Source of the DNA: a virus
IMG/VR virus record: IMGVR_UViG_3300015262_000017
Coordinates: 1-40,170 of that record
Reading direction: 5' to 3' (one strand)
Length of the DNA: 40,170 nucleotides
The notes below the pieces were generated by a model that was not told where the DNA came from, ran no database searches, and saw nothing but the letters and a program-made list of their open reading frames with translations. How positions within the stretch are numbered: the first letter of the stretch is position 1; each line of letters begins with the position of its first letter. Of this stretch, positions 7,687 through 38,921 are shown one piece after another. Both the position numbers and the translations under genes were made by a program.

Positions 7687-7898
7687 AATTCCATATCAGC
7701 AGTCCCGTGCACCTGGACGGCGAGATTGGCGTGCGCAGCGTCGTAGCGTGCCGCGTCAGCATCTCCGGCGCAGGTGGTTTCGACTACCGCCTGTTGCCTC
7801 CCACTGATGGCTGGGTTCATGGCTCGCGCCTAAAGACCGCCAAAGGCTATGGCGGAAACGCAGATGACGGCGAGAACCCGTTTCCGGAGGCCGCATGA
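7683..7898 (+). CDS. hypothetical phage protein, 71 aa
   Basis: It begins MKFHISSPVHLDGEIGVRSV. The first half predicts beta strands, and the C-terminal tail is glycine/acid rich (GYGGNADDGENPFPEAA). There is no known motif. It is coupled at both ends to neighbouring small genes by 4-base overlaps. Confidence 0.6.
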   Translation: MKFHISSPVHLDGEIGVRSVVACRVSISGAGGFDYRLLPPTDGWVHGSRLKTAKGYGGNADDGENPFPEAA

Positions 7899-8038
7899 AC
7901 ATCCACGACCACGGCGAGAACGATCCGCTGGAGTTCACCTTGGGCAGTTGGGCGCCGGTTGCCGCGGTGGTGAGGCGGGAGCTGGAAGAGCAAACGGGGC
8001 GGGTGCTCACGCAACTGCCGGACAACAGCAATGGATGA
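7895..8038 (+). CDS. small acidic hypothetical protein, 47 aa
   Basis: It begins MNIHDHGENDPLEFTLGSWA and ends LTQLPDNSNG. The ATG overlaps the preceding stop (ATGA), and its last bases overlap the start of the zinc-finger gene by 8. A helical core (VVRRELEEQTGRVL) is visible. It is kept because it fills the only gap in a gapless operon with matching codon use. Confidence 0.5.
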   Translation: MNIHDHGENDPLEFTLGSWAPVAAVVRRELEEQTGRVLTQLPDNSNG

Positions 8039-8225
8039 CCTCGACCGCGCCTCCGAAATCGAACAACTAGAGCGCGCCGCCGCACTCTCGCGCCACGCGG
8101 CCCGCCCGCAACCCGTGCTGCTGTGTGAAGCGTGTGAGGAAGTTCCTGCACACGTCACCACGTCGGGCACGCATTGGCGTTTCTGCGTTCCTTGTTCGGA
8201 AGAGTTTTTGCGGGGTGGGGTGTGA
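8031..8225 (+). CDS. TraR/DksA-type C4 zinc-finger protein
   Basis: 64 aa. The N-terminal acidic helix (MDDLDRASEIEQLERAAAL) is followed by a four-Cys finger, CEAC about 17 residues before CVPC. This is the compact layout of phage and plasmid TraR/DksA-like proteins, which bind the secondary channel of RNA polymerase and shift promoter use. It is shorter than DksA because it lacks the long coiled coil. It probably helps redirect host transcription early in infection. Confidence 0.75.
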   Translation: MDDLDRASEIEQLERAAALSRHAARPQPVLLCEACEEVPAHVTTSGTHWRFCVPCSEEFLRGGV

Positions 8226-8854
8226 ACATCATCGTTGCAGGCGAAGAGTCTGGCGTTACCCGCGATGCGTTCGCCGCGCTAGGCCACAACGCCTGGTCAT
8301 GCGACCTGAAGCCCTCGCGCTCGCCTGGTGGTCAGCACTGGCAGGGCAGTTGGCATGACGTGTACTGGCCCAGCTTTGACCTTGCCGTGATGCATCCTGA
8401 GTGCACGCACCTTGCCGTCAGTGGCGCCAAGCACTTCGCGGCGAAACGCGCGGATGGCAGGCAGCAGGCCGCGATTGCCGAGTTCATGTATCTGGCGAAT
8501 GCGCCGGCCTATGCTTCATGCGTCGAACAGCCCGTCGGCATCATGTCCACGCTATACCGCAAGCCGGATCAGATCGTGCAGCCGTGGATGTTCGGTCGCT
8601 GGGAGTCCAAGGCAACCTGTTACTGGCTGAAGAATCTGCCGCGCCTATCGGTGCTGTACCGCACGGTAGACGAGGCGCGCGAAGCGCTTGGTTTGCCTGC
8701 TGACGCAAAGCCAGAGCAGAAGGTGTGGAAGGCAGCGCCGACAAAAGACCCCGAGGTTCGCAGGGCTATCCGCTCCGAATCATTCCCCGAGATTGCCGCC
8801 GCGATGGCGATGCAGTGGGGCGGTCAGGTCGAGCGCTTGGCGGTGGCCGCATGA
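8222..8854 (+). CDS. DNA cytosine-5 methyltransferase-like protein (compact)
   Basis: 210 aa from GTG 8222 (GTGA overlap with the zinc-finger stop). IIVAGEESGVTRDAF resembles motif I, though the usual FxGxG is altered. SCDLKPS may be motif II. HPECTHLAVSG resembles the motif IV PC loop with C61 as candidate nucleophile, and VEQP is in the place of the ENV motif. The protein is much shorter than usual C5-methyltransferases and shows no target-recognition domain. It could be a minimal methylase that masks phage DNA, or a catalytically changed relative. No partner nuclease is adjacent. Its last 31 bases overlap an opposite-strand gene. Confidence 0.6.
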   Translation: MNIIVAGEESGVTRDAFAALGHNAWSCDLKPSRSPGGQHWQGSWHDVYWPSFDLAVMHPECTHLAVSGAKHFAAKRADGRQQAAIAEFMYLANAPAYASCVEQPVGIMSTLYRKPDQIVQPWMFGRWESKATCYWLKNLPRLSVLYRTVDEAREALGLPADAKPEQKVWKAAPTKDPEVRRAIRSESFPEIAAAMAMQWGGQVERLAVAA

Positions 8855-9371: not shown

Positions 9372-9845
9372 ATGAGCGCCATCCCCGCGCCCCTGGACAA
9401 GCTGCGCGACGCTTGCGTGCCGTTCACGCTTGAAGAGCTTGCAGCTACGAAATTCACCAGCGATGGCGATTACCGCCGCGGGTACTCACATGGCTATCAG
9501 GACGCCATGCGGGACATGCGAGACATCATGCTCCGTCGCGGATACAGCCGGCCGAGAGAGGCGTGGAACATCCTGGCCCGCTTCTATGACCTGGTGATCT
9601 TGCCGTGGCGATCGTCTGACTTGAAGCGCTTGATTGATCCGCCTCGCATGGCGCTTCCTGATTCGTGGCTCACCGTGCGCAAGCGCGTATTCGAGCGAGA
9701 CGGAAATGCCTGCGTTCAATGCGGCAACGTCGACGGACTCGAGTGCGATCACATCCGCGAAGTCCGCCGAGGTGGCAGGCCTGAAATGGACAACCTGCGC
9801 ACGCTGTGCGGAGCCTGTCACCGCGCGCGCAAAGGTGAAGCATGA
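9372..9845 (+). CDS. HNH endonuclease family protein
   Basis: 157 aa. The C-terminal HNH domain (about 98-150) shows CVQC (C114, C117), CDHIREV (D126, H127), N141 and CGACH (C146, C149), a complete zinc-stabilised HNH. The N-terminal 90 residues are unlike a known domain and include a Tyr/Arg/Asp-rich helix (RRGYSHGYQDAMRDMRDI). It is coupled to the primase-helicase by a 4-base overlap, so a replication or recombination role is more likely than free homing, but homing cannot be excluded. Confidence 0.8.
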   Translation: MSAIPAPLDKLRDACVPFTLEELAATKFTSDGDYRRGYSHGYQDAMRDMRDIMLRRGYSRPREAWNILARFYDLVILPWRSSDLKRLIDPPRMALPDSWLTVRKRVFERDGNACVQCGNVDGLECDHIREVRRGGRPEMDNLRTLCGACHRARKGEA

Positions 9846-36927: not shown

Positions 36928-37121
36928 TTGGACGACTCCTGGCGAAACTAGGCCGACGACGCCCCTGTGCGTGCCAGTTGATGACCGGGGCTTTGCTGTC
37001 TAACAGATCATGATCGGCCACGAAGGAATGCGGCTTCCCAGCCATCGGAACGCGAAAGTGTTAGACGGGCGTCATGTAGCGATTTGCTACTAAAATCAGG
37101 CACGTTTGACAGGTTGCGCCA
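36928..37121. other. intergenic left arm of the attachment region
   Basis: No gene supported. It carries two copies of the GTCTAAC repeat (36997-37005 direct, 37059-37067 inverted) and a small GTAGC/GCTAC hairpin around 37076-37090. Its base composition is less GC-rich than the coding flanks. It leads directly into the tRNA-like segment. Confidence 0.5.
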
Positions 37122-37171
37122 CTTGACTGTTAATCAGGGGGTCGCTGGTTCGAGTCCAGCTTCGGGCGCCA
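37122..37171 (+). other. 3' half of tRNA-Asn(GTT): probable attachment core
   Basis: From the anticodon stem onward: stem CTTGA (37122-37126), loop CTGTTAA with anticodon GTT, stem TCAGG, variable GGGTC, T-stem GCTGG/CCAGC with loop TTCGAGT, acceptor half TTCGGGC, discriminator G and CCA (37169-37171). The D-arm and 5' acceptor half are missing; the upstream bases do not pair. Phages that integrate into tRNA genes carry just such a 3' piece as the attP identity block. The integrase is about 570 bases away. Confidence 0.8.
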
Positions 37172-37179
37172 TATACGGC

Positions 37180-37212
37180 AAGGGTTGCGAGAGATTGCAG
37201 CCCTTTCTTTTT
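37180..37212 (+). terminator. terminator after the tRNA-Asn segment
   Basis: AAGGGTTGC - 8-base loop - GCAGCCCTT followed by TCTTTTT: a 9-bp stem with one G-T pair. It closes the tail-fibre transcript and would also terminate the host tRNA-Asn transcript after integration. Confidence 0.7.
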
Positions 37213-37264
37213 GTCTAACGTTTTGCTGTTTGTCTACGTTTTGCCGTGGTGGGTTCGCGTTTGG

Positions 37265-37273
37265 TGGTATGAT
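37265..37273 (+). promoter_or_regulatory. extended -10 promoter for the HNH gene
   Basis: TGGTATGAT is an extended -10 (TGN plus TATGAT). No good -35 is at the proper distance. The start site near 37280 coincides with a GTCTAACA copy (37281-37288), which could act as an operator. The ATG is at 37302 with AGGGCGA upstream. Confidence 0.5.
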
Positions 37274-37301
37274 AGACGCGGTCTAACAACAGGGCGAAAC
37301 G

Positions 37302-37757
37302 ATGACTTCTGAGCGCGCACAAAGCCATTTGCCGAAGTGTCTCTTCTTGAAGCACGGGCAGTATTTTTATGTTCGGCGCTTGGATGGAAAACTTACGTGG
37401 CTCCCGTTCGGGAGGGATGAAGCCGAAGCCATTGCAAACGCAAACAGCATGAACGCCATGCGTGTTGCCAAGCGCGTTGAGGCGCTCGGCAGGTTCCGTG
37501 ATGCAAATGTAAAACTGCGCGAGCTTATCTATGCGCGTGACAGCTATACATGCGTTTACTGCGGCGCTAAGGATGACTTGGTCATCGACCACGTTTTGCC
37601 ATTTGCGAAGGGTGGAAGCACTCACCACAACAACCTTGTCACCGCGTGCGCGCCATGCAATATGACGAAGGGTGACCGGGACGTGCGCGAGTTCATTTGC
37701 GACCTAAAGGGCATGGCATCAATGATGATTGAGGCGGCTATCCACGCTTCGGCTTGA
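37302..37757 (+). CDS. HNH endonuclease with integrase-type arm-binding N-terminal domain
   Basis: 151 aa. Residues 10-45 (LPKCLFLKHGQYFYVRRLDG, KLTWLPFGRDEAEAI) align with the first 39 residues of the neighbouring integrase (LPQRMHYKHGAYYYV, GKVKWLRL, EAL) and resemble the lambda Int arm-binding domain. The C-terminal HNH has CVYC (C84, C87), IDHVLP (D96, H97), N110/N111 and CAPCN (C116, C119). It has its own promoter and its end overlaps the integrase by 20 bases in convergent orientation. Possible homing nuclease or att-site cofactor. Confidence 0.82.
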   Translation: MTSERAQSHLPKCLFLKHGQYFYVRRLDGKLTWLPFGRDEAEAIANANSMNAMRVAKRVEALGRFRDANVKLRELIYARDSYTCVYCGAKDDLVIDHVLPFAKGGSTHHNNLVTACAPCNMTKGDRDVREFICDLKGMASMMIEAAIHASA

Positions 37758-38712
37758 AGCCACGCGGCTCGATCGGCTGCACAGCGACCAGTTTTGCCCG
37801 GTAATGCTTGCGCGTGATCTTGCTGTCAGAGTGGCCGAGTAGCGCCTGGGCGTGGTCGGTATCGTCCGCGTCGCTGCCGGCCTTCCGGCGTAGATCGTGG
37901 AAGGTGATAGCCCCCAGCCCTGCGCGGAGCTTCACGCGCCGCCATGACGCCTTGAAGCCGCTTGACGTGTACGCATCGCCGGTCTGCGACAGGAACACCG
38001 GCACCGACCCGATCCGCATGCCCGCTGCCGCCTTCCAGATCGCGCGCAGTTCGTCTGACCATGCGGTCAGGTGATCCTTTCCGGTCTTGCTGTCGGTGTA
38101 CGCGATCCCGGCATCCGTCGCTGCGGTGAGCTGCAATTCCAGAATGTCCTTCTGCCGCATGCCTGTAAGGTAGGCGAAGCGGACAAGCAGCTTCATGCGA
38201 TGCCCTGCGGCTGCGATCAGGGCTGCTAGCTCGCCGTCCTCGACGTACCGCTTACCCACGCCCTCGGCGTTGCGGAACTGCATCTCGGCGGCTGGATTCG
38301 CGCCGTCGAAGATCCCGGCTTTTGTCAGGTGTGCATACACCGCCGACAGCAGTGCCCTCTCGCGATTCCCCGATACATTTCCCCGCTTCACCACGTAGCT
38401 GTAGACGTGCGCTTTGCGAAGCTCCGTCACCAGCATATGGCCGAACACCGGCAGCAACTGCTTCGTGTTTTCCTCATACCCGGCCAGCGTGGCGGGCTTG
38501 AGCCTAGATGCTGACACGGCAAGGTAGTGCGCGACAGCCTGCGCGACCGTCCACGCCTGCGACGGCTTTCCTCCTTCAAGCTCGGCCCATTTGCGCAACG
38601 CCTCGCCATACTCGCCAGATAGGCGCAGCCACTTCACCTTGCCTGCGATCCGGCTTACGTAGTAGTACGCGCCGTGCTTGTAGTGCATACGCTGTGGCAG
38701 CTTGAGCTTCAT
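37738..38712 (-). CDS. int: tyrosine site-specific integrase
   Basis: 324 aa. The N-terminal arm-binding-like domain (about 5-40) is followed by a core-binding region (about 50-135). The catalytic domain has R186 (TGMRQKD), K209 (SKTGK), H272 and R275 (HDLRR), H294 (LGHSD) and nucleophile Y304 (RKHY). All tyrosine-recombinase residues are present. It inserts and excises the phage at the tRNA-Asn site. It is transcribed leftward, toward att, after the early genes. Confidence 0.93.
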   Translation of the reverse strand: MKLKLPQRMHYKHGAYYYVSRIAGKVKWLRLSGEYGEALRKWAELEGGKPSQAWTVAQAVAHYLAVSASRLKPATLAGYEENTKQLLPVFGHMLVTELRKAHVYSYVVKRGNVSGNRERALLSAVYAHLTKAGIFDGANPAAEMQFRNAEGVGKRYVEDGELAALIAAAGHRMKLLVRFAYLTGMRQKDILELQLTAATDAGIAYTDSKTGKDHLTAWSDELRAIWKAAAGMRIGSVPVFLSQTGDAYTSSGFKASWRRVKLRAGLGAITFHDLRRKAGSDADDTDHAQALLGHSDSKITRKHYRAKLVAVQPIEPRGFKPKRG

Positions 38713-38921
38713 GCGGCTTTGATCGCGGTCCAGTCGGGCTCGGCGGCTTTCTTGTCGGCTCGCTCTTTGTACTTCAGGGCGGCACTACGCTCAACCAGTG
38801 GGCGCCCGGCATAGTTGGGAGTGAAGGGCACACCCATCGCAGCCAGGCGCTTGCACTGCGTCGTGCGGCGCTTGGCGTCAGTCAGTTCGGAAACCTCTTC
38901 AGGGGTAAGCCACGGGCTCAC
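38709..38921 (-). CDS. DUF4224-like protein, probable excisionase-position gene (GTG start)
   Basis: 70 aa. MSPWLTPEEVSELTDAKRRT, then QCKRLAAMGVPFTPNYAGRP, then LVERSAALKYK, is the DUF4224 pattern: a small winged-helix-like DNA-binding protein usually encoded just upstream of phage integrases. Its stop overlaps the integrase start (ATGA). Excision directionality is inferred from size and place. Confidence 0.75.
   Translation of the reverse strand: MSPWLTPEEVSELTDAKRRTTQCKRLAAMGVPFTPNYAGRPLVERSAALKYKERADKKAAEPDWTAIKAA

Follow-up and report, generated by a model that had tools for sequence, protein, structure and literature searches.

The gene at positions 37302-37757 of the window (an IMG/VR virus record analysed over its whole length of 40,170 bases) is predicted to encode an intact HNH nuclease whose N-terminal part is an integrase-type arm-binding domain. 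The gene appears to be a foreign insert, lodged between the 3' end of the integrase gene and an arm site of the phage attachment region, and on balance we read its product as a free-standing homing-type nuclease aimed by the arm-binding domain. A parallel fusion of the same domain with a second nuclease type, found in a group of prophages, hints that attachment sites are the target of a little-known nuclease class, selfish or weaponised.

The HNH protein and its two domains

The genes and domains concerned are listed below.

37302-37757 (+): HNH nuclease gene with N-terminal arm-binding domain; ORF of 151 amino acids with ATG start, Pfam HNH_5/HNH, structure models
37329-37451 (+): lambda-Int-type arm-binding domain, beta-beta-beta-alpha, codons 10-50; identity to Int, pLDDT, PDB match 2wcc
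37551-37694 (+): HNH nuclease domain, codons 84-131; Pfam, conserved in a 41%-identical homologue
37738-38712 (-): tyrosine integrase (Int); Pfam Phage_integrase; its final codons overlap the HNH stop tail-to-tail and differ from those of a close relative, L040
38578-38700 (-): Int arm-binding domain, codons 5-45; alignment to the HNH protein, Int model
38709-38921 (-): DUF4224 small protein upstream of int; Pfam DUF4224, E 1e-12; position of an excisionase or regulator

The HNH ORF and the Int gene are convergent and their tails overlap by 20 bases. Residues 84-131 match Pfam HNH_5/HNH (E 3e-11, exceeding the curated cut-off), and the zinc CxxC pairs, D96-H97, N111 and N120 of an HNH nuclease are all present, in keeping with the complete HNH domain of the original prediction. 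Matches in PADLOC and NCBIfam were confined to this domain and, where cut-offs are given, fell below the family cut-offs; Pfam found no tyrosine integrase catalytic domain (PF00589) in the protein. The C-terminal half of the structure model matches Endo VII/HNH folds (Z 5.4); parts of this half (residues 98-110 and from 128 onward) are modelled with low confidence, so the HNH call rests on the Pfam match. A second, unrelated HNH gene lies at 9372-9845 (+) of the window, immediately upstream of a primase-polymerase-like gene, and is without an arm-binding domain.

The N-terminal domain had been proposed to align, over residues 10-45, with residues 5-39 of Int, and this holds: 15 of 35 positions are identical (43%, pairwise E 2e-8) between Int residues 5-39 and residues 10-44 of the HNH protein. 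No family in Pfam or PHROGs covers the domain by itself. The AlphaFold models, which make the comparison of N-terminal domains that had been called for, place strands at residues 14-17, 20-27 and 30-37 and a helix from residue 40 in the HNH protein (pLDDT 94-97 over residues 11-50), and strands at 9-12, 15-22 and 25-32 and a helix at 35-45 in Int; topology and strand lengths are identical, with a constant shift of five residues, so that the two domains share one predicted fold, and the failure to superpose that would have counted against the proposal is not seen. The top PDB match of the HNH model by Foldseek is 2wcc, the lambda Int N-terminal domain on P'2 arm DNA (probability 1.00, 2.3 A over 55 columns); this result is specific, even though the alignment behind the model included rows of integrase N-terminal domains, which favours that fold. 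The five best VIA rows are lambda Int throughout, with Z of 7.5-6.5, values below 8 that are modest, and the sequence match backs the assignment; Z is lower for P4-like arm-binding domains (4.8). We conclude that residues 10-50 form a predicted lambda-Int-type arm-binding domain.

Phages commonly carry HNH genes, and HNH homing enzymes with AP2-type three-strand domains are known (PMC10448857). The gene might thus be an ordinary phage HNH gene with a generic three-strand DNA-binding domain, parked by int since att ends tolerate cargo, and a tree of N-terminal domains that does not pair the HNH protein's domain with its neighbour's would agree with this. We consider this very unlikely. Sequence and fold are specifically lambda-Int-like and not AP2-like (Z 4.5 for AP2), the domain used alone matched integrases only across 50,697 phage records, and both known homologues of the window type, as well as all six loci of the prophage group described below, have the nuclease between int and the arm sites.

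The same tree (42 columns, mostly unresolved) bears on where the domain came from. The HNH domain is not sister to that of the neighbouring Int, so its capture is probably old; recent copying from that integrase finds no support in the tree, and the earlier suggestion of an especially close kinship with the neighbouring Int was not supported by this poorly resolved tree. Nor was the proposal of an extended -10 promoter of the gene's own confirmed, since a strict sigma-70 scan gave no match and the candidate TGGTATGAT is recognisable by eye only.

The attachment region and the inserted cassette

The elements of attP upstream of the HNH gene, and the inserted cassette, are as follows.

36998-37004 (+): arm-type site GTCTAAC, P arm; repeat scan, kept in L040
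37060-37066 (-): arm-type site GTCTAAC, P arm, inverted; repeat scan
37124-37171 (+): attP core, 48 bp, 3' part of tRNA-Asn; identical in L040, chromosomal tRNA-Asn match, Rfam tRNA 28.1 bits
37180-37214 (+): terminator-like hairpin in the interval between core and P' arm; similar sequence in L040
37213-37219 (+): arm-type site GTCTAAC, P' arm, first of a tandem pair with 19-bp spacing; kept in L040
37232-37238 (+): GTCTACG, an altered form of the arm-type site at the insert's left junction; L040 reads GTCTAAC here
37237-37763 (no strand): inserted cassette of about 527 bp; replaces 7 bp of L040, low GC
37281-37287 (+): arm-type site GTCTAAC within the insert; ends 14 bp upstream of the HNH ATG

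The core has two mismatches to complete chromosomal tRNA-Asn(GTT) genes, and its Rfam score is slightly below the cut-off. All four copies of GTCTAAC in the 40-kb record fall within 36998-37287, a number reached in none of 2000 local shuffles. To the left of the core lie a direct and an inverted site, and to its right a tandem pair with 19-bp spacing, an arrangement characteristic of arm-type sites; from these sequence features we conclude that the region around the tRNA-Asn core is a real attP. Both an attP adjoining the HNH gene and a repeat copy at the predicted start had been foreseen, and the clustered sites, including the copy 14 bp before the ATG, bear this out. Lambda-type integrases bind arm-type sites; by analogy with this established biology, Int would bind the GTCTAAC sites. 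The hairpin at 37180-37214 has a T run and could terminate the host tRNA transcript after integration.

Comparison with the HNH-less relative L040 delimits the insert. The L040 integrase is 96% identical to Int (95% by tblastn), and its locus has the same core and the same arm-site layout. The HNH gene is missing there, and the stop codon of the integrase falls within the first P' arm site. The cassette begins inside the second P' arm site and ends in the last int codons, which are rewritten relative to L040 (PIEPQSVRHKPKR to PIEPRGFKPKRG). It has 54% GC against 63% for the genome, which puts it among the lowest 0.9% of sequence windows. The HNH gene is also missing from the related integrase loci L041, L042, L044, L045 and L059; because related loci are mostly HNH-less, insertion is a simpler direction than loss. 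The integrases of the window and L040 differ at 88 silent positions across 310 codons, so the insertion is probably not a recent event, and its direction is deduced by parsimony. Taken together, composition and junctions identify the HNH gene as a probable foreign insert between the int 3' end and an arm site. Presence/absence polymorphism at a defined insertion site is seen both for the window against L040 and among the prophage loci described below.

The arm motif extends beyond this pair. TGTCTAA/TTRGACA occurs downstream of int in L040, L042, L045, L059 and L070, mostly as two tandem copies with a spacing of about 20 bp, and recurs across the integrase family irrespective of whether the host site is a tRNA or mutS.

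Recurrence of the arrangement in other phages and prophages

When 2.9 million viral contigs were scanned with an unbiased pattern, one further true match emerged, L005 (IMGVR_UViG_3300038492_000133), bringing the carriers of the window type found to two. Its HNH protein is a full-length homologue with 41% identity and retains every zinc and catalytic residue. The gene begins right after the int stop, on int's strand, and ends at attP, whose core is the 3' half of a tRNA-Lys (tRNA type read by eye); the orientation of int relative to the HNH gene is opposite in the window and L005. Arm-like GTCTACAC sites flank the core, including a 19-bp tandem pair with one mismatch in each site; the second site of this pair sits in the last HNH codons, and the HNH start carries an additional one-mismatch copy of GTCTACAC. 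Among ORFs of at least 100 amino acids, the only other items that the two records share are int and a match, at domain level, to the second HNH gene of the window. The int/attP slot is therefore kept between window and L005 while orientation and tRNA differ, and the proposed link to the attachment site, which homologues lying mostly far from integrases would have undone, is upheld by a full-length homologue between int and attP. In both phages a DUF4224 small protein, likely an excisionase or regulator, is encoded directly upstream of int (window 38709-38921; L005 8689-8946). The L005 integrase (7797-8708, -) has no LGH box near its C-terminus and no PF00589 match and so looks decayed, next to an intact HNH neighbour.

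Other searches for the architecture were negative within their reach. An initial viral scan with the HNH protein alone gave no matches, and pattern scans with two other gap settings gave chance matches or none; L004, L006, L007 and L036, retrieved by pattern scans, were rejected as chance matches. Across 84,980 species genomes, a pattern that requires Lys=AAG and C-x-Y-C, and is thus not exhaustive, retrieved 16 stretches, none of which encodes the architecture. There was no full-length match to the window type or to group B (described next) in 369 genomes of L020's class, and none to group B in 348 genomes of one family, these being searches without a positive control. Searches of open-licence papers gave no description of a fusion of this N-terminal domain to a nuclease, and no annotated phage record with it was found.

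The second nuclease type, which we call group B, came from a survey of 80 related integrase loci, six of which hold an ORF that has the same N-terminal domain and starts exactly at the int stop. All are prophage loci, and the ORFs lie directly after int in prophages that integrate at mutS:

L065, 1574-2164: group B1 nuclease ORF
L066, 1433-2023: group B1 nuclease ORF
L088, 3957-4547: group B1 nuclease ORF
L079, L098 and L104, 3973-4506 in each: group B2 nuclease ORFs

Their C-terminal part matches PHROG 3322 'endonuclease' as well as Endo VII and HNH PHROGs, and Pfam gave nothing significant for it. The group B motif has DR in place of the DH of HNH enzymes, which leaves the predicted nuclease activity uncertain. 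A core from the 5' end of mutS was found within five of the six loci; the distance from int to core is 589-607 bp with the ORF (n=5) and 67-70 bp in mutS loci without it. These empty loci have a site pair such as AGTATTAGACAG (i.e. CTGTCTAATACT), with the same GTCTAA motif, immediately after int. Group B1 keeps a pair of sites at the 3' end of the nuclease gene. Loss of an arm site through the insertion, which the change from GTCTAAC to GTCTACG in the window would fit, was consequently rejected as a general rule. Since group B loci were found via DNA around integrases, nearness to int is partly selected for; this does not apply to the precise placement of the gene, with int on one side and the arm sites on the other.

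Divergence within group B is lower in the nuclease than beside it. The B2 nuclease shows no replacement changes and 14, 26 and 37 silent codon changes (L079/L098/L104), or 0.08-0.21 silent changes per codon; the int gene beside it has 0.29-0.35 (95-117 silent changes, 332 codons). In B1, nuclease windows differ by 0.00-0.02 over most of their length and int windows by up to 0.20, so that int and the downstream DNA diverge more than the near-invariant nuclease. This pattern is what a selected, horizontally moving gene would look like and points to strong purifying selection, although low divergence can also reflect ordinary recombination. Spread between backgrounds exceeding that of the flanking gene is indicated for group B alone, the window type comprising two sequences.

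These loci also allow an assignment of the protein to integration itself to be weighed. It could be an accessory or regulator that competes with or helps Int at the arm sites, sets the direction or timing of integration and may nick attP, with the arm site immediately before the HNH ATG providing feedback. Co-transcription with int is likely in L005 and group B, where the start codon is at or overlaps the int stop, and would suit such a role. We nevertheless regard it as quite unlikely, because nearly all related integrases function without such a gene, its orientation relative to int is reversed between window and L005, the insert has foreign GC, and the presence of differing nuclease types in one slot suggests that cutting matters.

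Proposed homing into attachment regions and comparison with known systems

Under the homing interpretation that we favour, the N-terminal domain would bind, in the attachment region of a phage, an arm site of the TGTCTAA type, after which the HNH domain would cut nearby, at the junction of the int 3' end and P' arm, in an allele without the gene. With the HNH-bearing copy as repair template, in a co-infected cell or when an incoming phage meets a prophage, the cassette could then be copied in, and the carrier may be spared because insertion alters the spacing between arm site and cut site. As the carrier retains intact arm sites, it would have to be shielded from its own nuclease by the nature of the cut site or by regulation. 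Homing is supported by the domain make-up, the position at attP, the empty allele, the foreign composition and the recurrence in an unrelated phage, and further by the group B nuclease DNA, which diverges less than the flanking int and appears to be under strong purifying selection. The original prediction had offered a homing nuclease for tRNA-site att regions: the homing-type part finds clear support in the comparisons, given empty sites, foreign GC and a nuclease less diverged than int, but targeting of tRNA sites has not, as group B sits at mutS and the common factor is the arm sites.

The same chimeric design could also serve as a weapon, kept by the phage to cut attachment regions in rival phages or satellites that share its arm motif. 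The logic is that of Odn (a nuclease with the DNA-binding domain of a mobile element's protein), rivals would carry the motif given that TGTCTAA recurs in many related integrase loci, and the purifying selection seen on the group B nuclease would agree with such a role. A location inside the phage's own attP suits homing better, however, the carrier keeps the same arm motif, and no resistance phenotype is known; we think interference unlikely.

More broadly, unrelated nucleases may have acquired integrase arm-binding domains on more than one occasion, giving an att-directed class that homes into and polices the attachment regions of temperate phages, a generalization to which we give slightly less than an even chance. 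If true, the DNA-binding half of an integrase is reusable as an aiming device for nucleases, the att site becomes a homing target or battleground, and a 150-residue protein together with a 300-bp target would suffice for direct tests of att-site competition and prophage exclusion. For annotators, small nuclease genes between int and attP deserve re-inspection.

Among known systems, the group B proteins resemble F-CphI and other Endo VII-motif homing endonucleases in their Endo VII and HNH profile matches and C-terminal nuclease; those enzymes are intron-associated and an integrase-type domain has not been described for them (PMC6083498). A tested precedent for the logic of the design is Odn of phage ICP1, which shares its DNA-binding domain with the replication initiator of a satellite and cuts where that initiator binds (PMC8263062). 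Like Odn, the window protein is a chimeric nuclease sharing a DNA-binding domain with a mobile element's site-specific DNA-binding protein; Odn has a RepA_N domain and cuts a satellite replication origin, whereas the window protein has an integrase domain, an HNH nuclease and a gene inside attP. As it lacks the T5orf172 nuclease and RepA_N of the Odn type, the likeness is one of logic only. AP2-HNH and IPA-HNH are free-standing phage HNH homing endonucleases with HNH first and AP2 last (PMC10448857). The window protein is like AP2-HNH in having a nuclease with a separate DNA-binding domain (the AP2 domain is likewise a three-stranded sheet), in presence/absence at a fixed site and in insertion between genes. 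Its binding domain is instead N-terminal and of the integrase arm-binding type, and its site is attP; with the domain order reversed, it falls outside the AP2-HNH family of N-terminal HNH and C-terminal AP2. In sequence pattern and predicted fold, residues 1-66 resemble the arm-binding domain of lambda-family Int (PDB 2wcc, 1kjk, 1z1g), here joined to a nuclease and not to a recombinase.
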